A DNA stretch of 64,000 nt, taken from NCBI GenBank assembly GCA_005884115.1, contig VAXW01000007.1, forward strand, positions 1-64,000, given 5' to 3'. This DNA comes from Actinomycetota bacterium (GTDB taxonomy: Bacteria > Actinomycetota > Thermoleophilia > Solirubrobacterales > Solirubrobacteraceae). Positions 5,572 through 31,351 of the stretch are shown in pieces. A program made the translations under genes and the position numbers. The notes under the pieces are model-generated. The model had not been told where the DNA came from, searched no databases, and worked only from the letters and a program-made list of their open reading frames with translations. How positions within the stretch are numbered: the first letter of the stretch is position 1; each line of letters opens with the position of its first letter.

Positions 5572-7227
5572 GTGGAGGCCTCCGCATTTACACACGCAAG
5601 CGCGCTGCCCGGTCTGCGGGGCCCCTCGGCTCTGCTGCGCCTGCAGTCAGACGAACGCCTGATCGCGCTCACGCGGGGCGGCAATCACGCCGCCTTCGAG
5701 ATCCTCTGCTCGCGCTACCACTCGCGGCTTCTGTCCTTCTGCCGCCACATGCTCGCCTCGCGCGAGGACGCCGAGGATGTTCTGCAGGAGGTCTTCGCCG
5801 CCGCCTTCAACGCCGTGCTCGCCGACGAGCGCGAGATCAACGTGCGGCCGTGGCTGTACCGCATCGCGCGCAACCGCTCGCTGAACCACCTGCGCCGCGC
5901 CACGGCGGTCGGCGTCGACTCGATGGACGTGCACTTCGCCGATCACGGCCTCTCCACAAGTGACCGCGCGATCCGCCGCGAGAGCTTCCGTGAGCTGCTC
6001 TCCGACGTCCACAAGCTGCCTGAGACGCAGCGCACCGCGCTGCTGCTGCGCGAGATCGACGCACTCTCCTACGAGCAGATCGCGCACGCCATGGAGACCA
6101 CCGTCCCGTCGGTCAAGTCGCTGCTCGTACGGGCCCGCATCTCGCTCGCCGAGGCCGCCGAGGCGCGCAGGCTCAGCTGCGAGGAAGTGCGCCACGAGCT
6201 GGGCGAAGCGGCCGAGGGGCTGATCAAGCTCAGCCCGCCCGCGCGCCGCCACGTGCGCGGCTGCGACCGTTGCCGCTTCTTCAAGAAGCATCTGCGCCAG
6301 AACAACCACGCGCTCGCCGCCATGCTGCCGGTTGGGCCGCTCGTGCTCGCCAAGAAACTTATCTTCGCCAAGCTCACGGCCTCGGCCAGCAGCGCGCACG
6401 TAGCCGGCGGCGCCGGCGCAAGCGTTGGAGCCGGCGCCGTGGCGAGCGCTGGGGCCGCGGGCGCGGGCAGCACCGCGGGCAGCATCTTCACGCTCGGAGC
6501 CGGAGCGCTCACGTCCAAGGCCGTAGCCGGCCTGGCAGCAGCCGCGATCGTCAGCGCGGGCGCGGTCGCCGCCGACAAGGTCGTCGTCGTCCACAATCCC
6601 CACCACGCGCGCCTCGCATCGAGCTCGGCGAGCGCAGCGGCTGAGGCGACGCGGCCGATCGTTGTCAGCCAGCGCTCGCAGCCCGTGAGCGTCGCGCGAC
6701 GCAGCGCTGCGGGCGCTCACACACAGGCCCACCGCAAGACCGAGGCCACGAGCGCCGCCGCCGTCAAGACAGAGGCCACCACTCCTGCCGCCGCGCCGGC
6801 CGCGCCGGCGCAGGCGGCTCCTCCCCCCACATCCACAGCGCCGCAACCTGCACCCACCCAGGTCACCGAGGTGACCAGTGAAACCACGCAGCTGCCAACC
6901 GCCGCGACTGCGCCAGCGCCGCCACCCGCCGAAGGCAGCGCAGCCCTGCCCGAAACGGCGCCTCCACCCGAACCGCCGTCGACGAGGCCGACCGCACCCG
7001 CGCCCGCTCCCGCCCCTAGCGGCGAAGCTGCATCGGCGCCGCCCGCCGCCCCGGCGCTCCCGCAGGAGGTGGCCAGCGCCCCCCAGCAGCAGACCAGCAC
7101 GCCGACCGCAGCGCCCGCTCACCCGCGCCACCAGCGCACTTCCGCGCGGGTGCTCAGCCGCCGGGACTCTCGCGCCGGCCTAGTGCAGGGTAAACGTCTT
7201 CAGCGGCCTCAAGAGCACACCCGCTGA
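5572..7227 (+). CDS. ECF-type RNA polymerase sigma factor with fused ZAS anti-sigma-like motif, TM segment and Pro/Ala-rich C-terminal tail
   Basis: Sigma r2/r4 (EDAEDVLQEVFAAAF, LPETQRTALLLREIDALSYEQIA), then HVRGCDRC (HxxxCxxC), hydrophobic ALTSKAVAGLAAAAIVSAGAVAA, then P/A/T-rich tail; start codon uncertain (GTG 5572 proposed). Confidence 0.85.
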   Translation: MEASAFTHASALPGLRGPSALLRLQSDERLIALTRGGNHAAFEILCSRYHSRLLSFCRHMLASREDAEDVLQEVFAAAFNAVLADEREINVRPWLYRIARNRSLNHLRRATAVGVDSMDVHFADHGLSTSDRAIRRESFRELLSDVHKLPETQRTALLLREIDALSYEQIAHAMETTVPSVKSLLVRARISLAEAAEARRLSCEEVRHELGEAAEGLIKLSPPARRHVRGCDRCRFFKKHLRQNNHALAAMLPVGPLVLAKKLIFAKLTASASSAHVAGGAGASVGAGAVASAGAAGAGSTAGSIFTLGAGALTSKAVAGLAAAAIVSAGAVAADKVVVVHNPHHARLASSSASAAAEATRPIVVSQRSQPVSVARRSAAGAHTQAHRKTEATSAAAVKTEATTPAAAPAAPAQAAPPPTSTAPQPAPTQVTEVTSETTQLPTAATAPAPPPAEGSAALPETAPPPEPPSTRPTAPAPAPAPSGEAASAPPAAPALPQEVASAPQQQTSTPTAAPAHPRHQRTSARVLSRRDSRAGLVQGKRLQRPQEHTR

Positions 7228-7848
7228 GGCCACTTCCAACGGTGAGCTGACCTGCCGGCTGGCGGTCGGTGTCGTGAGCATCGTGATCTCCACGCCCTTG
7301 CGAACATGCGGGCGCTGGGCAAGCAGGAACACGTCGCGGCCGAACATCGTCTGGCCGTCCACCGTGGCCGTGAACATCACGTTGTAGGCGGGAACCTTGT
7401 TGACGCGCGTCTTGCCCTCCGCCCGCAACACGAAGTCGCGGTAGCGTGCCGCCAGCGCGCTGATCCGGCGCGAGGCGAACACCGGTAGCTCTCCCGAGAG
7501 CCATCCTGCATAGGGCGGCAGCTGCAGCGGGGCGACGGCAAAGGAGTCCTCGAGCCTCCCGTCGCGGCCCAAGCGCTCGACCTTGACGTAACCCCCCGCG
7601 TCGGGCTGAGCCCTGAACAGGCCGCGGTAGCTGAAGCTGAACGGCGCCGCTCCACCGCGCGAGTAGTGGGCGTTCTCGAGCGTCAGCGCCAACGCCACCG
7701 CGAGCACCACGAGCCCCGCGGCCGTCGCCCTCGCGAGAACACGCCCCGTCCGCGAGGCGGCTCGCCAGCGCGATGAGAGCAGCTGACCGAGCGTCGGCCC
7801 GTACTCCCGCTTGATCGGAAGCGCCCGAATCAACGCCGGCCGAGTCAC
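7180..7848 (-). CDS. Hypothetical single-pass membrane protein
   Basis: GTG start overlapping the upstream stop (GTGA); TM segment AGLVVLAVALALTL; soluble C-terminal domain. Confidence 0.7.
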   Translation of the reverse strand: MTRPALIRALPIKREYGPTLGQLLSSRWRAASRTGRVLARATAAGLVVLAVALALTLENAHYSRGGAAPFSFSYRGLFRAQPDAGGYVKVERLGRDGRLEDSFAVAPLQLPPYAGWLSGELPVFASRRISALAARYRDFVLRAEGKTRVNKVPAYNVMFTATVDGQTMFGRDVFLLAQRPHVRKGVEITMLTTPTASRQVSSPLEVASAGVLLRPLKTFTLH

Positions 7849-19765: not shown

Positions 19766-20455
19766 CTAGCAATCGGCTTCGTTGGCGATCGGTGCGCTGA
19801 TCGCCAGCAGCTTCACGTCGATCCCCGAGATGACGTTGCCGCTGCGGCGAACCTGCACGCACTGAACTACGGGCAGCCGGCCGAGCACGATCCACGCGAT
19901 GCGCGTCTTTCCGCTGGCACCGCCCAGCGAGTAGGAGGTGCGCGATTTCACGGACAGAATCTTGACGTCGCCGCGCCTGCGCAGCGATACCGCGTTGGCG
20001 CGCACCGTCGCCACGCACGCGGGAGAGAGATGGCAGCCGCTCAGACGCGCGAGCATGGCGTTGACTTCGCCCCGCGCCTGCGCCTGTAGCAGCGCCGCCA
20101 GCTCGCTGCGTTCGGCGTTCTCGACCGACAGGAAGCGCGCCAGCAGGATGCTGATGGCGACGAACACCAGCACGCATAGAGAGATGATGGCGAAGCGTTT
20201 CAGAGAGCGGCTCGCGTCCGGGAAATACCCCTGCGGTCGAACCGTCAGGCCATCGCCGCTGTGGGTCGCGCTGGTGTCTAGAGCATCGCCAACTGCAGTT
20301 GCGAGCTCGCCGAAGAGCTTATTCTCAAGCGATGCGGACGAGGACGCTCTCCGCCGTGACGGCTGCAGCTTCGATCGCCCTCGCAGCCTGCGTGTGGGCG
20401 GCGGCAGATGCGGGCCAGCCGCCCGTGTCAACCCACCGGGCCCGGGCGGGCGCAA
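19766..20455 (-). CDS. Hypothetical membrane protein (start uncertain)
   Basis: TM FAIISLCVLVFVAISILLA plus extracytoplasmic domain. Confidence 0.55.
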   Translation of the reverse strand: MRPPGPGGLTRAAGPHLPPPTRRLRGRSKLQPSRRRASSSASLENKLFGELATAVGDALDTSATHSGDGLTVRPQGYFPDASRSLKRFAIISLCVLVFVAISILLARFLSVENAERSELAALLQAQARGEVNAMLARLSGCHLSPACVATVRANAVSLRRRGDVKILSVKSRTSYSLGGASGKTRIAWIVLGRLPVVQCVQVRRSGNVISGIDVKLLAISAPIANEADC

Positions 20456-22215
20456 CGTCCTCGGCCGTCCGAGACCACGCTGCTCTCAAGCGCAGAGCCC
20501 GCTGCCGCCCTGGCCACGTTGAACTTGCGCTCCGCGGCCCTCGCGTGGTCGCGCCGCAGCACTCGACGCTCTACATCGTCTCGGTACGCGCCTGCACGAG
20601 CAGGCCAGGGGCGACCATCAAAAGCATCCGCCTCTCGCTGCGCGGCCCGCAAAGGGTCTCTTGGAGGATCAGGCGCCTGCGAGCGGGCTCCGTGGCGCGG
20701 AAGCGAGCCAAGCTGACGTTCAGGCGCCCGCCCGCCAACCTGGCCTCGAAGCCCGTCGTTTTGATCATCCAGGCACGCTCCCGTCGTGGCAGGCTGCTGG
20801 GCCGCGAGCGCGTGCTGATCCACTTCCGCCCGGAGGTCGGGTCGAGCCGGCCTCTGGAAGGCGACACCACCATCGGGTGGGGCATCAATGCCTCGGGCGA
20901 GGTGGGCGCGGGGTTCAGAAGCCCCCCGCTCCCGAGCCCGGTTCGGGGGCCGCTTCGCGGTGTCCGTCAGGTGGTGGCGGCGTACAAATCCGGCTTCGCG
21001 CTGCTCGACGACGGGACCGTTCGCGCGTGGGGCGGCAACGGCAGCGGACAGCTGGGCGATGGCACCCACTTTGAAAAAATCAACCCGGTCCAGGTCCTGG
21101 GGCTGAGCCATATCGTGCAGATCGCCGCCGCGGGCACGCACGCGGTGGCGCTTCGGGACGACGGGGCCGTCTGGACATGGGGAGAAGACCACTACGGCCA
21201 GTTGGGAAACGGCACGCGCGACGCCACGGAAGGGATGGCCCATCCGGTCCCGGCCCAGGTTCCGGGGCTGGGCGGCGTCGTGGCAATCAACACCGGCGGA
21301 CCAGACGACGTAGCCGTGCTCGCCGACGGAACGGTCCGCGACTGGGGCGAAAACAGGTACGGGCAGCTTGGCGACGGCACCAAAGAAATGAAACTGGCTC
21401 CGACCCCAGTCAAGAACCTCGCCGGCGTACGGATGGTCGCGATGGGAGGAGTGGGTCCGAACAGCGTGCACATGCTCGCGCTGCTAGGCAATGGGACCGT
21501 GATGGTCGCGGGGCACAACGACCACGGCCAGCTGGGGCTCGGCGACACGACGAACCGGCTCGTGCCCGTGCCGCTACCCGGGCTCAGCGGTGTGCGCGCG
21601 ATCTCCGCCAGCGGCAGTCACAGCCTCGCCCTTCTATCGGATGGCAGCGTCTTCTCCTGGGGCACGGGCGCCGAGGGCGAGCTCGGATACCCAGCGCCGG
21701 AAATGTGCGGCACGGTTCCCTGCAGCACGAGGCCGCGACCCGTCAACCTCGCCGGGGTGAGCGCCGTGTCGGCGGGATGGAGGTTCAGCGTCGCCATCAG
21801 CAACGAACAGGTGCTGAGCTGGGGGCGCAACGAAGGCGGTGAGCTGGGCAACGGCACGCTGGCGAACCACACCGCACCACAGCTCGTGCCCGGCATCGCC
21901 GGCATCCACTCGATCTGGGCAAGCGAAAAATTCACCCTGGCCACGACCGAAAATGGTCCCTCGCCGAACTTCTCCGTTCGACCTGTGGCCGGCGGGCTCC
22001 TGGCTCAGTGGGCGCCGGCGCCCGGCACAGAACCGTGGGCACTGAGCTGGCGTCCGTTCAGCAAGCCGCGCGTCGAATGGCCGCGACCGGTCATCCTGCC
22101 AGCGTCAACTCGCAGCTACGCGATCACGGGACTTGCGCCGGTGCTCTATGAAGTTCGCCTCAAAAGACTCAGCAGCACCTTTGGCTTCGAGATCGCCTAC
22201 GGGGTGGCGGGGTAG
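20332..22215 (+). CDS. Secreted RCC1-repeat beta-propeller protein
   Basis: Seven WG-x(5-6)-GQLG-type repeats (GINASGEVG, GGNGSGQLG, GEDHYGQLG, GENRYGQLG, GHNDHGQLG, GTGAEGELG, GRNEGGELG); N-terminal signal. Confidence 0.88.
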   Translation: MRTRTLSAVTAAASIALAACVWAAADAGQPPVSTHRARAGATSSAVRDHAALKRRARCRPGHVELALRGPRVVAPQHSTLYIVSVRACTSRPGATIKSIRLSLRGPQRVSWRIRRLRAGSVARKRAKLTFRRPPANLASKPVVLIIQARSRRGRLLGRERVLIHFRPEVGSSRPLEGDTTIGWGINASGEVGAGFRSPPLPSPVRGPLRGVRQVVAAYKSGFALLDDGTVRAWGGNGSGQLGDGTHFEKINPVQVLGLSHIVQIAAAGTHAVALRDDGAVWTWGEDHYGQLGNGTRDATEGMAHPVPAQVPGLGGVVAINTGGPDDVAVLADGTVRDWGENRYGQLGDGTKEMKLAPTPVKNLAGVRMVAMGGVGPNSVHMLALLGNGTVMVAGHNDHGQLGLGDTTNRLVPVPLPGLSGVRAISASGSHSLALLSDGSVFSWGTGAEGELGYPAPEMCGTVPCSTRPRPVNLAGVSAVSAGWRFSVAISNEQVLSWGRNEGGELGNGTLANHTAPQLVPGIAGIHSIWASEKFTLATTENGPSPNFSVRPVAGGLLAQWAPAPGTEPWALSWRPFSKPRVEWPRPVILPASTRSYAITGLAPVLYEVRLKRLSSTFGFEIAYGVAG

Positions 22216-22260
22216 AGGCAGGCAACCACAGAACATGCGAAGCCCTGGAAAAAGCCTACA

Positions 22261-22891
22261 TTGAGCGGAGGGGCAAAGTGGCTTAACCCGCGCAAGGCCT
22301 ACCGCAAATCCCTCTGGAAGGCCAAGCTCCGGCGGGCGGCGCTGCGACGCCGCAAGCGCCGGCGGGAACTGATTGCGTTGCTGCCCAAGAACGGCGTCGG
22401 CGTCGAGGTTGGCGTCTGGAAAGGCGACTTCAGCGCAAGGCTTCCTGAGGGGAGCCAAGCCCCGCAAGCTGTATCTCATCGATCCGTGGCAGCACTCCTC
22501 GCACAGCGGGGCGTGGTACGCCGAGAAGGATGAAGAGGAGATGGCGGATATCCGAGAAGAAGTCGTCGCGCGGTTCGCGCGGCAGATTCAGCGCGAGCGC
22601 GTCGTGGTCATCGCCAATCAGTCACAGGATGCCGTTAGGCAGCTCACCTCGGCACACCGCTCGGACCTGTTCGACTGGGCGTATCTGGACGGCGACCACA
22701 CCTACGAGGCAGTGCTGGCCTATCTGAGAGCCTTCTGGACCTTGATCCGTGACGGGGGGTGTCTGGCCGGTGACGATTACGGGATCAAGGGCTGGTGGAA
22801 CGACGGTGTGACCCAAGCCGTAGACCAGTTCGTCGCCTCAGTCGATCGAAGCCCCGTGATTCTGGGCTCCCAGTTCTTGATCCGCAAGTAG
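22261..22891 (+). pseudogene. Class I SAM-dependent methyltransferase (Methyltransf_24-like), frameshifted
   Basis: GVGVEVGVWKGDFSARL in frame of ORF 22261..22533 continues as LRGAKPRKLYLIDPWQHSS..DWAYLDGDHTYEAVLAYL in frame of ORF 22373..22891; junction about 22440-22450. Confidence 0.75.
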
Positions 22892-22940
22892 AGGCTGCTT
22901 CCCCTGCTCGCCGGCGCGCTCCCTCGCCCCTCGCGGCCAA

Positions 22941-24230
22941 TCACGGGCCGCTGTTGAGCGTCCACAGCAGGTCGACTCGGTAGACCTCGCTTTCACGCAG
23001 CACGAGCAGCGTGGTGGGCGTGGAGAGCGCCAGGCTGGTCGCGCTGAAGCCGCTCGTTTTCCACGGTCCCCGTCCGGCCCCGCTCGCCGTCGATACGATC
23101 TTCGCCGCGCTGGAGGCGTCGAGCGGGCACGCGGTCGAGTTGCACTGGAACACGGGCGCGCTGCCTGATCCGCCGGTGGTGCTCCACGACGCGCTCGCGG
23201 TGTTGAGCGTGAGAGAGCCGGCGGGAAGCGTCGCGCCCCCGCTGATGTAGCCCGGCCCCGTGTCGCTCCCGCAAGTCGCGTTGGGGCAGTACTGCTTGAA
23301 CACGGCGCTGTTTCCAGCGCTCGCGTTTCCGGCGACGGTGACGTTCCACCCCGACCCCGAAGTCGTGTCATCGACGGCGAAGTTGCTCATCGTCGCATTG
23401 GTGGTCTGGGTCTGCCCGTTGAGCGTGACGTTGGGCAGCGCGGGGGTAGCTGGCGCCGCATCGAAGCTCAGGGCCCCCGTGCCTGGCTTCAGCGCGATCG
23501 TGATCGCCCCCCAGGGAATGCTCGCGGAGGTCGTAAAGGTCTTGGTGCCGGTGGCGCCGGCGGTCGCTTGCGTCAAGTCCTGCGCCTGAGTGCCCAGGAC
23601 GCTCCCGCTGCCCGACGTGAAGACGCTCGCGCGTTTGGTCGTCGATCCCGGCGGGGTGATCGTGAAGGAGCCGAGCGAGTCGTTGGCGGCGAAGTCCAGG
23701 AGCACCTTCGTGTTGTTGACCGTCGTGGTGATGCTGGCAGCGGCGTCGCTGGTGCCGCTGCTCGCTCCCGCGGTGGTTGAGGTGACCTCGATCGGCGCGG
23801 GATCGACGCCCACGTAGGAGAGGATTTTCCCGGTGGCCTTGCGCGTGGTCCCCAGCCCCCAGCTGTAGGACGCCGGCTCGCTGGACCCCGCGACGTGGAA
23901 ATACACGCCGCTGAAGCCGAAGAACGCCGTGCCGGAGAACAGGCCCGTCGAGGACCAGCCACTCGGGACCGTGAAGCTGCCGCTGCCCTCGGCGTCGATC
24001 GACGCGATCATCACGTCGCCGGCGACCACGCCGGCCGGACGGTTGACCGCGATCGACGTTGCGCCGCTACCGGTCTGCGCGGTTTCGGCGCTGCGGAAGT
24101 AGGTCGTCGCCCCGGCCTGTGCGGGTGCGAGCAGGGGCACGAGCAGGGCTGCGATCGCCAGCGCGTACACGCCGCCCTCGCGGAGCATCGCGGCCAGCTC
24201 AACGAGGTTGAGGGCGCGCCCCGCACGCAT
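22941..24230 (-). CDS. Secreted protein with beta-sandwich N-term and C-terminal WxL-like domain
   Basis: Signal peptide; proximal GSGWNVTVAG and terminal YRVDLLWTLNSGP; paralogous to 25721..26395. Confidence 0.75.
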   Translation of the reverse strand: MRAGRALNLVELAAMLREGGVYALAIAALLVPLLAPAQAGATTYFRSAETAQTGSGATSIAVNRPAGVVAGDVMIASIDAEGSGSFTVPSGWSSTGLFSGTAFFGFSGVYFHVAGSSEPASYSWGLGTTRKATGKILSYVGVDPAPIEVTSTTAGASSGTSDAAASITTTVNNTKVLLDFAANDSLGSFTITPPGSTTKRASVFTSGSGSVLGTQAQDLTQATAGATGTKTFTTSASIPWGAITIALKPGTGALSFDAAPATPALPNVTLNGQTQTTNATMSNFAVDDTTSGSGWNVTVAGNASAGNSAVFKQYCPNATCGSDTGPGYISGGATLPAGSLTLNTASASWSTTGGSGSAPVFQCNSTACPLDASSAAKIVSTASGAGRGPWKTSGFSATSLALSTPTTLLVLRESEVYRVDLLWTLNSGP

Positions 24231-24239
24231 GCTGCCCGC

Positions 24240-25676
24240 TCAGCCTGTCGATCTAGGCGCGCGCATCGGATGCGGCGCGGTGCGGATGCGCTGCAGAAGC
24301 TCGGGCCCGGTCGAGTTGGGGTCGGCCTCGTGCACCGCAACCTCCACATCGGCCGTCACGCCCTCGGCGCGCTCGGCATGGCGCCGCAGATCGGAGGCGA
24401 GCGTCTCAGCCGTTTGCAGATCGGTGTCGGGCGCCACCACGAGGAACCGCAGAGCGTCGAGCCGGCACAGGCGATCCGAGTGGCGAATGCGCGAGCGCAG
24501 GACCGGCGCGAGCCTCTGTGGCGAAGCTCCGTTGGCGGTCAGCGACACGCTGATGAGACTTACGGGCGCGCCGCTCCGTTGAGCAGCCTGGAGCGCCGCG
24601 TCGATGGTTCGGGCGGGCGAGCGCCCGCCTGCCCTGCGCCGGCGCACCAGCAGAGCGGCCGCGATTGAGAGTAGGCCTGCACCGAGCACGCTGAGCAGTG
24701 CCACGAGCCAGCCGGGAAGGCCGGAGGAGGCACCGGCCTTGGGTCCGCCGTAGAGCTGCTGGCGCAGCGCAGCGGCTCGCCCGAAGCGCACGAGCGTGTC
24801 AAGCCTCGCGATCCCGCCCACGTAACGCAGGTAGGCGCGCACGCGATACGCGGTGCCCTGCGGCGGCCGCTCGCGGGGCGCGAGGATCGGGTAGGCGATC
24901 GAGGTCCCTGTCACAAACGTGCCCGGCCCGAGCGCGACCCGCGCCACGACTCGGGACCCCCTGGTCACCAGCGCGCGGCCTGCGACGTTCTGCAGGATCA
25001 CGTTGCCCGGGTTGCGTGCCTCCAGCAGGAACGCGAGCCCGGCGGGCTGGCGTTCCAGGCGAGCGCCTGTGAATCGGATCAGCGGGTGGCGCGGGCCGGG
25101 GACCGAGGCCTCGACGCCGATCGCGTAGCGCACGACGCTGGCGACCGAGACGCCCCGTCGCGCGGTGCTTTGCGCTCGCTGGCCGAGCTGTTCGACGGCG
25201 ATGCCGGCGAGGTAATCACCCGGCCGCGCATCGCGCGGCGCGAGGACCGAGACGGGCACGACAGCGGTTGCGCCCGCCGCGAGCGTGATCCTCCGCCGGC
25301 CGAGACGCACCCAGCTCGCGGGCTCGCGAGCGCCCGAGCCTCTGAGTCCATACGTGGATCCGAGCGTGTCGATCGTCCGTCCGGCCACGGGGTCGAGCGC
25401 GACACGCAGCGGCCGGCCAGTTGGGTTGCGCACCCCGATCGTTCCTGCCTGCCCCAGATGCCCGTGTCTGATCGAGAGCTTGAAGTAGCTCAACGATCCC
25501 GACGCCGGATTGGGAATGACGATCAGAGACGGCGCTGCCGCGTAGCTCGCGGGTGCCACCCCGCACAGCCCGGCGGCGAGCGCCGCGGCCGCCAGCGCCC
25601 ACGTTCGACGGCGCTTCCAAGCGCTTCTGCGTAGGCGCGCGCACGGCGGGCCGGAGCGTCTCATGGTCTTGACCAT
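24240..25676 (-). CDS. WxLIP/DUF916-like membrane protein with cytoplasmic degenerate GGDEF-like domain
   Basis: Extracellular ..FKLSIRHGHLGQAGTIGVRNPTGRPLRVAL..ARPGDYLAGIAVEQ; TM GWLVALLSVLGAGLLSIAAALLV; tail RIRHSDRLCRLDALRFLVVAPDTDLQTAETLASDLRRH. Confidence 0.7.
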   Translation of the reverse strand: MVKTMRRSGPPCARLRRSAWKRRRTWALAAAALAAGLCGVAPASYAAAPSLIVIPNPASGSLSYFKLSIRHGHLGQAGTIGVRNPTGRPLRVALDPVAGRTIDTLGSTYGLRGSGAREPASWVRLGRRRITLAAGATAVVPVSVLAPRDARPGDYLAGIAVEQLGQRAQSTARRGVSVASVVRYAIGVEASVPGPRHPLIRFTGARLERQPAGLAFLLEARNPGNVILQNVAGRALVTRGSRVVARVALGPGTFVTGTSIAYPILAPRERPPQGTAYRVRAYLRYVGGIARLDTLVRFGRAAALRQQLYGGPKAGASSGLPGWLVALLSVLGAGLLSIAAALLVRRRRAGGRSPARTIDAALQAAQRSGAPVSLISVSLTANGASPQRLAPVLRSRIRHSDRLCRLDALRFLVVAPDTDLQTAETLASDLRRHAERAEGVTADVEVAVHEADPNSTGPELLQRIRTAPHPMRAPRSTG

Positions 25677-25720
25677 TCGGCGATCCTGCCTCGCTTTCCT
25701 GCTGTCTTAGCTGCGAGCGG

Positions 25721-26395
25721 CTAGGGCCCCGTGCTGAGGGTCCACAGGAGGTTCACGCGATAGACCTCGCCGTTGGAGAGCACCTTCAGCGTCGATGGCG
25801 TGGCGAGCGCGAGGCTCGTCGCGGAGAAGCCGGTCGTGAGCCAGGTGCCCATGCCCGCTTTTTCGGCGGCCGAAGCGATCTTCACAGCGGTGGCGCTGTC
25901 AACGTTGCAGGAGGCCGAGCACTGAAGCGTGGGCGCCGTTCCTGTCGAGCCGCTCTGTGCCGAGAAGCTCGCGCCGGTGCTGTTCAGGGTGAGCGAGTTG
26001 GCGGGAAGCGTGGCGCCGCCGGCGACATAGCCTTTGGTGTCGGTCCCGCACGTCGTGGTTGGGCAGTATTGGGCAAACACCGCGCTTTTTTCGGTGCCCG
26101 ACTGCCCAGCGACGGTCGTGTTCCAGCCCGAGCCGCTGCCGGTGGCGTCCTGGACACCGAAGTTCGTCATGGTCGTGTTCGTCGTCTGCGACCCGCCGCT
26201 CAGCGTGACTTCTTTCAACGTCGGCATCGCCGGGGCAGTCGAAAACGTCAGCGCTCCGGCTTTCACCGAGAATTCGGCTTTGTCTTCCTGAGTGGCGCCG
26301 AGCGCGGCCGTCGACACGAGCGCTGCAGCGACGCAGCCAAGCACTACCGATGAGAACGCTTGCTTGGTGAACGCTGCAGGTGGACGTTGGCCCAT
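25721..26395 (-). CDS. Secreted WxL-like domain protein
   Basis: Signal peptide; GSGWNTTVAGQ and terminal YRVNLLWTLSTGP. Confidence 0.75.
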   Translation of the reverse strand: MGQRPPAAFTKQAFSSVVLGCVAAALVSTAALGATQEDKAEFSVKAGALTFSTAPAMPTLKEVTLSGGSQTTNTTMTNFGVQDATGSGSGWNTTVAGQSGTEKSAVFAQYCPTTTCGTDTKGYVAGGATLPANSLTLNSTGASFSAQSGSTGTAPTLQCSASCNVDSATAVKIASAAEKAGMGTWLTTGFSATSLALATPSTLKVLSNGEVYRVNLLWTLSTGP

Positions 26396-26677
26396 TTCGA
26401 GCTCCTTCGCGGTGGAGCGCCGCGGCGGCGGCGCGAAGTTGACGGGGTCCTATCGGCACCCGGCCACCACCCCTTGAGCGCGCCATCGAGCAGCCAGGTC
26501 GACCAATGGGGTGAGCTAGGAGTTTCGCCTCTCAAGCCCGCCGCGCCGAGGCGGCTAGACGGATGTAGCACTCGCCCAGGCGACCGACGATGGGGCTACG
26601 TTCTTCCGCCGTGCGACGATCCGGCGAGATGCCCACTCGACCGCACCGATAACAGCTCGAAGACCCGCCCCTGGCGG

Positions 26678-29220: not shown

Positions 29221-29317
29221 CAGTCCTCGCCCGTAGCATAGGTCCAAGGAGCCCAGAAATCCTCCCGTCGTGGGCTCGGCTTGCGGGCGAGGCGAGCCCG
29301 TGCTCGGCGCTTATGCA

Positions 29318-30130
29318 ATGATCCGCCGCCTGCTTTGGGGAGTCCCAAGAGCAAGGAAGCACCTCAGCGGGCTCTGGGCGCTGCTGCTCGCCACATGCGC
29401 GAGTGCAGGCCTAACGTCGGCTGCGGTGGCCAGCTCGACCGCGACGTCGGGGTCCGATGCGAGCGCCACCTCAGGCTCGGGGGCCAGCGCCTCTTCGGGA
29501 TCGAGCGCGAGCGCCACCTCGGGGTCCGGAGCGAGCGCGTCGGCGGGTTCGGGCGCGAGCGCGACAGCCGGCTCCGGGGCGACGTCCAGCGCCACCTCGA
29601 CGGCGACCTCGACCGCGAGATCGAAATCGAGGTCGAGGAGGAAGCACGCGAGAAGGCACTGCGGGCACACGCACATGACGCCCGCCAGGGGCAGGGCCGC
29701 GGTCATCGACCGGGCGACGCTGTGCCTGATCAACCACATCCGCATCCGTCACGGGCTGCGCCGGGTGCACCACAGCCGCGCGCTCGGCGGCGTTGCCATC
29801 GGCCAGGCCCACGACATGGTGCGAGGCGACTACTTCGCCGACCACAGCCTGCTCGGCCAGCCGCCCTCGGCACGCATCATGGTGGCGCTGCACCGGGCCG
29901 GCCCGGCCGGCTTCAGCGTCTCGACGGCCCAGAACATCGGCTGGGGCGCTGGCCGCGCCGCAACTCCGGCGGGGATTGTCAGAGCCTGGATGCACTCGCC
30001 GCCACACCGGCGCATCATGCTCTCACCCGCCTTCCGCAAGGCAGGTGTGGGCGTCGCGCCGGCGCTTCCCCGCGCGCTGGGGCGCGGCTCCGCCGGCGCG
30101 ACCTACGCCGTCGAGTTCGCGGCTGGCTAG
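29318..30130 (+). CDS. CAP (SCP/PR1) domain secreted protein with Ser/Gly/Ala low-complexity linker
   Basis: CLINHIRIRHGLRRVHHSRAL..QAHDMVRGDYFADHS..QNIGWG..W.HSPPHRRIMLSPAFRKAGVGV. Confidence 0.88.
   Translation: MIRRLLWGVPRARKHLSGLWALLLATCASAGLTSAAVASSTATSGSDASATSGSGASASSGSSASATSGSGASASAGSGASATAGSGATSSATSTATSTARSKSRSRRKHARRHCGHTHMTPARGRAAVIDRATLCLINHIRIRHGLRRVHHSRALGGVAIGQAHDMVRGDYFADHSLLGQPPSARIMVALHRAGPAGFSVSTAQNIGWGAGRAATPAGIVRAWMHSPPHRRIMLSPAFRKAGVGVAPALPRALGRGSAGATYAVEFAAG
29440..29600 (+). repeat. Degenerate (A/T)SGSGASA-coding repeat
   Basis: Repeated TCxGGxTCxGGxGCGAGCGC units in the coding sequence. Confidence 0.75.
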
Positions 30131-30136
30131 GCCGGG

Positions 30137-31351
30137 CTAGGCTCCGCGCCCGGATCGACGCGGGACGCGCCCGCCCTCTGCGCCCACCTCCGAGGCGGGG
30201 CCGCCGGCGAACGGGATGCCCAGCACGCGCATGGCCTTCAGGCCGAGGCTCAGCTTCTCGCGCCCGTCGCTGGAGCCGACGTCGTGCCCCGAGAGCTCGC
30301 GTATGCGCTCGAGACGGTAGTAGATCGTGTGCCGGTGCGTGAACAGGCGCTGGGCTGTGCCGGCGACGTTGCCGTCGGCCTCCAGGAATGCGTCGAGCGT
30401 GCGCACGAGCTCGGTCTCGTACTGTTCGTCATACGCGACTAGGGGCTCGACGGTCTCGGCGTAGAAGCGCTGCAGCTCCGCTGGGTTCTCGCTCATCGCG
30501 GACAGCAGCAGGCGGTAGGCGCCGGTCTGCTCGAAGGCGAGCGCCACGCCGTCGCCTCCCCCCTGCGCGACGTTGGCGGCGAGCAGCGCCTCGCTGGCCG
30601 CGCGCGGGAGGTGCGCGGGGTCCTCGGCGATGCGGCTGCGGCCGAGCGCGAACGTGTACCCCGGCAAGCTCGCCTGCATCTCGCGCAGAACGCCGTCGGC
30701 TGCTTTAGCTGCCACCGCCTCGTCGCCGCCGGGCACGAGCACCAGCACCTCGGCGGCGAGAACGCCCTCGCGTTCTGAGAGAGCGGCGATCGAGCGGTTC
30801 ATCGATGCGCGAGCGCCGCGCTCGGCGACGGCGCGCACCCGTCCGCGCCAGCCGTCGTCTGTGAGTGCCTGCGGATGGGCGCGCGCGACGATCATGCTCG
30901 CGCCACCTTCGACCTCGAGCGAAAGCTCCTTGGCCCGCGCGAGCAGCGCTTCGCGGTCTGAGAGCTCGCGGCCGAGCACCGCCCGCAGGAAGTCGGCAGC
31001 GGCGGATTCGGAGACCCGCTCGGGCGCCCTGATCCGCTCGACCTCGGAGGCGATCATCGTCGCCAGGAGCCTGCGCATCGAGGCTCCGGGTTGGCGCCTC
31101 GATCTGATGTGAAGCGCCCCGACGACCGTATCGGCGACGCGCAGCGGCACGCTCGAGACGCCTTCGCCGCCGGAGAGCAGCGTGCGCTCCTCGGCTGGCG
31201 AGCGGGCTGCGACTGCCAGCGTCGCCCCCCAGGCATCGCTGACAGCGAGGCTGGCCTCGAGCGTCTTGGCGGCAGCCCGCACGACCTCGGGGAGCCCGGC
31301 TCCCGACTCGATCGCGGCCGTCACCGCATCGAGGTCCGAAAAGTCGGACAC
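30137..31351 (-). CDS. PucR/CdaR-type transcriptional regulator with C-terminal HTH
   Basis: C-terminal LVRTLDAFLEADGNVAGTAQRLFTHRHTIYYRLERIRELSG. Confidence 0.87.
   Translation of the reverse strand: MSDFSDLDAVTAAIESGAGLPEVVRAAAKTLEASLAVSDAWGATLAVAARSPAEERTLLSGGEGVSSVPLRVADTVVGALHIRSRRQPGASMRRLLATMIASEVERIRAPERVSESAAADFLRAVLGRELSDREALLARAKELSLEVEGGASMIVARAHPQALTDDGWRGRVRAVAERGARASMNRSIAALSEREGVLAAEVLVLVPGGDEAVAAKAADGVLREMQASLPGYTFALGRSRIAEDPAHLPRAASEALLAANVAQGGGDGVALAFEQTGAYRLLLSAMSENPAELQRFYAETVEPLVAYDEQYETELVRTLDAFLEADGNVAGTAQRLFTHRHTIYYRLERIRELSGHDVGSSDGREKLSLGLKAMRVLGIPFAGGPASEVGAEGGRVPRRSGRGA

Follow-up and report, generated by a model that had tools for sequence, protein, structure and literature searches.

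WxL clusters have been described as Firmicute gut-commensal systems for host attachment (PMC9772566), the described examples being csc of Lactiplantibacillus, loci A-C of Enterococcus faecium and elr of Enterococcus faecalis (PMC1534035, PMC9772566, PMC10599100). Degenerate GGDEF proteins are known from other systems as receptors of cyclic di-GMP (c-di-GMP): PelD of Bacillus cereus binds c-di-GMP via an RxxD motif with a dissociation constant of 103 nM, binding being lost on mutation of the R or the D (PMC7112168), PopA of Caulobacter is a degenerate GGDEF c-di-GMP receptor with RxxD (PMC5052742), and LapD of Pseudomonas fluorescens is a membrane c-di-GMP effector controlling adhesin retention (PMC5052742). 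Here we analyse a three-gene operon, A-B-C, in a 64,000-nucleotide stretch of a member of the Solirubrobacteraceae (contig VAXW01000007.1; this whole stretch is hereafter the window), which comes from a 3.14-Mb draft genome that is 88% complete. A-B-C is a genuine WxL cluster comprising two WxL proteins and one WxLIP. The cluster itself is of a known kind, and the new element is a pseudo-GGDEF tail on the WxLIP; our search found no literature joining ‘GGDEF’ and ‘WxL’, which is weak evidence given that most subscription journals lay outside it.

The three genes are adjoining open reading frames on the minus strand, as are all the features of A, B and C given below, and the coordinates and tight spacing reported in the first-pass annotation of this DNA were confirmed. 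Gene A (25721..26395) encodes a small WxL protein of 224 aa, with a signal peptide at approximately residues 1-34 and a WxL domain (residues 43-224) as its sole other part, gene B (24240..25676) encodes the WxLIP of 478 aa, and gene C (22941..24230) encodes a large WxL protein of 429 aa. The intergenic distances are 44 bp (A-B) and 9 bp (B-C), and a GGAG-type ribosome-binding sequence lies upstream of gene A. The nearest named relatives among the fetched loci are metagenome-assembled genomes (MAGs) of Actinobacteria, Solirubrobacterales and Thermoleophilaceae, a soil origin being what we read from isolate labels (‘30cm’, for instance) and not a stated fact. The assignment of A, B and C to their families, the layout of the operon, the co-occurrence of the genes, the fold of B and the state of the two tail motifs described below (GG(D/E)EF lost, RxxD kept) are computed results.

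At its N-terminus B has a hydrophobic signal, and then an extracytoplasmic region, one transmembrane helix at approximately residues 322-349 (24630..24713; from hydropathy and a helix in the model) followed by RRRR, and a tail of ~125 aa. A 16-member profile of the B family matched the solved structure of EfmWxLIP1 with E=8.1e-16 over chain residues 5-273, which span both the PGBD and the HBD, and 15 of these 16 members match Pfam WxLIP_PGBD and 8 match WxLIP_HBD. In B the peptidoglycan-binding domain (DUF916/PGBD) was placed at residues 50-192 (25101..25529, bounds approximate) by Pfam, profile and model, and the second Ig-like domain, equivalent to the WxLIP HBD (DUF3324), at residues 198-300 (24777..25085) by the EfmWxLIP1 profile match. 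The AlphaFold2 model of B has a mean predicted local distance difference test score (pLDDT) of 80, with most ectodomain blocks at ~90, and its top matches were three solved WxLIP chains (9i1y, 9i25; E 7e-18 to 3e-16, target TM-score 0.75-0.81), the weaker matches being to pilus chaperones and RbmA, as expected for paired Ig-like domains. B also has SYFKL at the place of the published PGBD motif (which ends YFDLK), its Y and F being invariant in all 16 family members. B alone stays under the Pfam cut-offs (WxLIP_PGBD 17.5 of 27.3 bits; GGDEF 17.4 of 23.8) and does not match the Pfam HBD; we take the family profile and the model to be decisive for its predicted identity as a WxLIP despite these scores. 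The DUF916/WxLIP-like region and transmembrane helix proposed for the middle gene product were therefore both recovered.

A WxLIP is expected to end with its transmembrane helix, and B instead continues for ~125 residues behind it. The signalling-like tail that the first-pass annotation had noticed here turns out to be a degenerate GGDEF domain (residues 350-470; 24267..24629). Alone it matches Pfam GGDEF weakly (E=0.0038), a four-sequence profile of such tails matches GGDEF structures (5euh, E=9.6e-6; PleD, 1.8e-4), and in the model its helices and strands are arranged in a GGDEF-like order, residues 402-416 forming a hairpin. We found this tail in six species, namely that of the window, G011 (loci L046/L065), G410 (L066), G423 (L069), G424 (L111) and the more distant G234 (L091). 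None of the six keeps GG(D/E)EF (DALRF, DGGRL, NGHEL, PGRSL, PGKSV and DAGRL), which in B reads DALRF by alignment (residues 407-411; 24444..24458), and DxDxFKxxND, the early GGDEF part with its metal and GTP residues, is likewise absent from the B tail in the alignment. Since these catalytic residues are missing, we rejected the possibility that the tail is an active diguanylate cyclase. All six tails have RxxD five residues before the lost motif (RHSD, RRAD, RRSD, RHSD, RHGD and RDSD), at the position of the GGDEF I-site and in B at residues 398-401 (24474..24485), its R and D being among the few positions invariant across these diverged sequences.

Other WxLIPs of the class carry other tails. 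Pfam places DUF3892 behind the transmembrane helix in genome G250 and locus L077, and the WxLIPs of loci L063/L074 have it there too, whilst some others have almost nothing behind the helix. A further group (L084, L085, L086 and L087, from G320, G262, G318 and G242), forming one tree clade, has a Pro-rich linker and a conserved HRCxNCG end, which from its sequence we read as metal-ribbon-like.

The WxL assignment of the flanking genes starts from A, which matched Pfam WxL (PF13731) at 33.6 bits against a cut-off of 25, the only such match in the whole draft genome; 16 of 21 homologues in one alignment matched the same family. C itself has no Pfam match and is assigned to WxL because its C-terminal 180 aa are 62% identical to A (E=4e-68), this domain occupying residues 250-429 (22944..23483). 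Both proteins end exactly with YxxxLxWxLxxxP (A, YRVNLLWTLSTGP; C, YRVDLLWTLNSGP) and have a proximal SGSGWN in common, which bears out the homologous C-terminal WxL domain that had been noticed in the two; the terminal second motif is exact within the clade of the window and looser outside it. The first W-x-L motif, counting against the WxL definition, is not kept and reads WNT in A and WNV in C, such that only half of the ‘dual WxL’ definition, the second motif, is found in these proteins. In Firmicutes the first motif comes with an Asp at W1-8 (PMC9772566); this Asp was present in 50 of the 59 domains in which the first motif could be read and is kept by both A and C, and an Arg at W1-6, present in 21 of the 59, is in neither. 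Sequence searches of PDB with A, with C and with alignments of them returned no relative, and NCBIfam and PHROGs added nothing on WxL.

The N-terminal domain of C (residues 41-248; 23487..24110) is beta-rich, belongs to no Pfam family and turns up again in long proteins elsewhere in the class, as judged from profile positions and long open frames. In the model of C the last domain has a pLDDT of ~88. Residues 144-251 are poorly modelled, because of which the outcome of a Foldseek search of the whole model against PDB, with nothing below E=0.001, neither supports nor excludes a WxL fold. A viral library gave phage matches at low, uninterpretable TM-scores.

WxL/WxLIP sets recur sparsely across the Thermoleophilia. 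When loci were fetched only by their similarity to WxLIP, 15 of the 17 had an adjoining WxL-like gene. This is the co-occurrence figure least affected by selection, although WxL genes were detected with an iterated profile that had been trained on the same loci and on which the weak members lean. The two exceptions were L071, whose gene is cut off by the end of its contig, and L081 from a Candidatus Moranbacteria MAG, in which the WxLIP-like protein (5962-7641) has a long C-terminal part and no WxL neighbour. In the class sample of 299 genomes, Pfam WxL matched in 26 and the WxLIP profile in 62, many of these latter matches being weak and partial; WxLIP matches were found in 40 of 232 genomes of the order sample and WxL matches in 15 of 399 of the phylum sample, and the WxL/WxLIP pair also occurs in three Chloroflexi MAGs (L073, L078 and L079). 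The neighbourhood survey that the first-pass annotation had suggested thus found the genes co-occurring in related genomes, and a relation to WxL and WxLIP was found for the proteins themselves. That annotation had also held an actinobacterial cluster to be unusual outside the low-GC Gram-positives; on the counts above the cluster is not a one-off, and what is unusual is the tail. The large partner varies between loci, being a PKD and beta-propeller protein in L052, a YCF48-like propeller in L051 and a 1664-aa protein in L058. At L089 (G263, contig C117) there are two strong and one weak WxLIP-like genes, with no WxL gene found in the 9 kb inspected.

We propose that A and C, once secreted, would be held at the cell surface by the membrane-anchored B as a wall-associated adhesin complex, in which the B ectodomain would bind WxL as in Enterococcus and the N-terminal domain of C would face outwards. 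That the three proteins form a physical complex is probable, the binding of WxL by B being suggested by analogy with 9i25, by its title an E. faecium WxLIP bound to a long WxL. The helix of B would span the bacterium's own membrane, leaving the tail, in all likelihood, in the cytoplasm. WxLIP helices have been proposed to insert into host membranes, the bacterial membrane being judged inaccessible (PMC10599100). Since a domain of a cytoplasmic signalling family lies directly behind the helix and its arginines, and domains of other types do so in related WxLIPs, the sequences argue against host-membrane insertion for the proteins studied here, and by extension we infer that Firmicute WxLIPs may also have their helix in their own membrane. 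The catalytically dead tail would most likely serve to bind c-di-GMP at its RxxD I-site, in the manner of PelD and PopA, the odds of such binding falling a little short of even. Signalling by c-di-GMP is present in this genome, given its 15 GGDEF and four EAL matches. The c-di-GMP state of the tail would then be passed across the membrane to the WxL complex and attachment controlled from inside, although control of adhesion by the tail is a doubtful step. Taken only as far as c-di-GMP binding, the whole explanation is tentative, at not quite an even chance, and to a fully c-di-GMP-gated complex, with the messenger binding the pseudo-GGDEF of the WxLIP and thereby switching a wall-bound adhesin set, we assign a probability of roughly one in three.

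Several observations weigh against c-di-GMP gating. RxxD was also present in all five of the genuine GGDEF proteins inspected in relatives and may have been inherited by the B tail for structural reasons, and a candidate for the further I-site Arg, also invariant, lies at +33 from the RxxD Arg, compared with +32 in B. cereus PelD by residue numbers (PMC7112168). In a tree of 52 ectodomains, built with G234 left out, a clade of nine with full support holds five of the tail-bearing proteins; within it the close relatives G004, G010 and G012 have tails of only ~13 residues, and the ninth member, G189, is cut by a contig end. The tail of the more distant G234 may be a separate gain. The tail is also less constrained than the ectodomain, the ratios of non-synonymous to synonymous substitution rates (dN/dS) between the window and G011 being 0.47/1.33 for the tail and 0.26/0.70 for the ectodomain, and between L069 and G424 0.32/0.57 and 0.18/0.72 respectively, as obtained by a simple counting method that is rough at such divergence. 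Finally, the coupling of the tail state to the WxL proteins is itself a proposal from analogy. An ordinary WxL/WxLIP cluster in which the tail is a structural anchor or dimerisation plug without ligand, its pseudo-GGDEF fold holding the protein at the membrane, would fit a tail that close relatives do without, that is under weaker constraint, that shares its RxxD with the parent GGDEF family and whose place in other WxLIPs of the class is taken by unrelated DUF3892 or metal-ribbon-like ends. We regard such a plug as a serious contender, at somewhat below even odds; it leaves aside the invariance of R and D across six diverged tails, none of which retains the catalytic motif, it sits less well with a tail dN/dS below 1, and RxxD-bearing degenerate GGDEFs are already known as receptors (PMC7112168, PMC5052742).

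The layout of B, with an ectodomain, a single helix and a cytoplasmic domain, is also that of a sensor, and related WxLIPs differ in their cytoplasmic domains in a way typical of modular receptors, so that the tail might bind or sense something else, for instance a partner protein or another nucleotide, with B reporting the occupancy of the WxL complex from outside to the cytoplasm. This is improbable, since the tail retains no domain with a catalytic output, and the cluster is not accompanied from one genome to the next by a kinase, a regulator or any other partner gene. It is more improbable by far that A-B-C is not a WxL system at all, with A and C resembling WxL by their last residues only and B being a generic Ig-like surface protein: the WNT and WNV first motifs, the lack of a Pfam match for C alone and the absence of a WxL structure from the Foldseek results on its model would agree with this, but A passes a curated Pfam cut-off, PF13731 is matched by most homologues (16/21), the Asp at W1-8 recurs in 50/59 domains, and both sequence and fold identify the neighbouring B as a WxLIP.

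The operon splits a glmU-prs-x229-rplY-pth block found unbroken in several congeners, which lack the ~6.2-kb stretch between x229 and prs (20456..26677) that here holds A-B-C, a Methyltransf_24 open reading frame and an RCC1-repeat gene. We inspected the region behind prs in 20 relatives, fetching 1.5 kb from each. x229 lay within ~230 bp of prs in seven, including G011 and mostly with rplY next, and rplY lay within ~100 bp of prs in three more; four had gaps of ~370-1060 bp behind prs, and in the other six neither x229 nor rplY occurred within the 1.5 kb. G011 has the full A-B-C on another contig and its own prs-x229-rplY run unbroken. The cluster therefore sits at different places in close relatives, and the prs-x229 site seems to be a variable one. 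We saw neither an integrase nor long flanking repeats around the stretch and found no sigma-70-type promoter or terminator-like site marking it. No other gene of the window travels with the cluster in other genomes. We considered a functional link with glmU-prs and discarded it, since glmU and prs are not found with the cluster in other genomes and, in congeners, lie side by side without it. Of the neighbouring genes, the RCC1-repeat gene (20299-22215, plus strand) encodes a secreted beta-propeller protein (Pfam WD40_RLD/RCC1) and is not beside the cluster in other genomes, and the short Methyltransf_24 frame (22373-22891, plus strand; 172 aa) is convergent with the operon. A secreted CAP-domain protein, whose signal is followed by a low-complexity Ser/Ala/Gly repeat, is encoded at 29270-30130 (plus strand), and a PucR-type regulator with HTH_30 and GGDEF_2, which is GGDEF-like, at 30137-31351 (minus strand), a few kb from the operon and with no link to it shown.

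A-B-C has in common with the Firmicute clusters the C-terminal WxL domain and a WxLIP made of PGBD, HBD and a transmembrane helix. It differs in its host, a high-GC member of the Actinomycetota known from a free-living MAG, in the loss of the first W-x-L, in the absence of an LPxTG protein from A-B-C, in a large WxL partner without a known family, and in the extra cytoplasmic domain of B, which at 478 aa is longer than the 337-365 aa of Firmicute WxLIPs. EfmWxLIP1 (9i1y, 9i25), which has both Ig-like domains and is the best match of B in sequence and in fold, is only ~14% identical to it in the structural alignment, and the Enterococcus structure has no GGDEF-like tail. The presence of the three-part cluster in Actinobacteria of probable soil origin argues that the WxL system is wider than host attachment. 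If c-di-GMP gating is correct, WxLIPs would be anchored in the plasma membrane with exchangeable cytoplasmic modules (pseudo-GGDEF, DUF3892 and metal-ribbon-like).

The tail itself compares best with PelD (of Pseudomonas and B. cereus) and PopA, in which the GGDEF fold likewise lacks the catalytic motif and keeps RxxD, and PelD is, like B, a membrane protein, and controls a surface product, as proposed for B. B differs from both in having no GAF domain, in the erosion of the early DxDxFKxxND part and in its partner system, and its c-di-GMP binding is a prediction; the RxxD-bearing tail turns the idea into a specific and cheaply answerable question about c-di-GMP binding and WxL display. LapD, for which no homology is claimed, shares with B only the proposed logic of an inactive cytoplasmic c-di-GMP domain controlling an adhesin outside, and unlike B it uses a degenerate EAL domain and blocks the proteolytic release of its adhesin. 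Should the c-di-GMP-gated reading hold, A-B-C would be a Gram-positive counterpart of such inside-out adhesin control.

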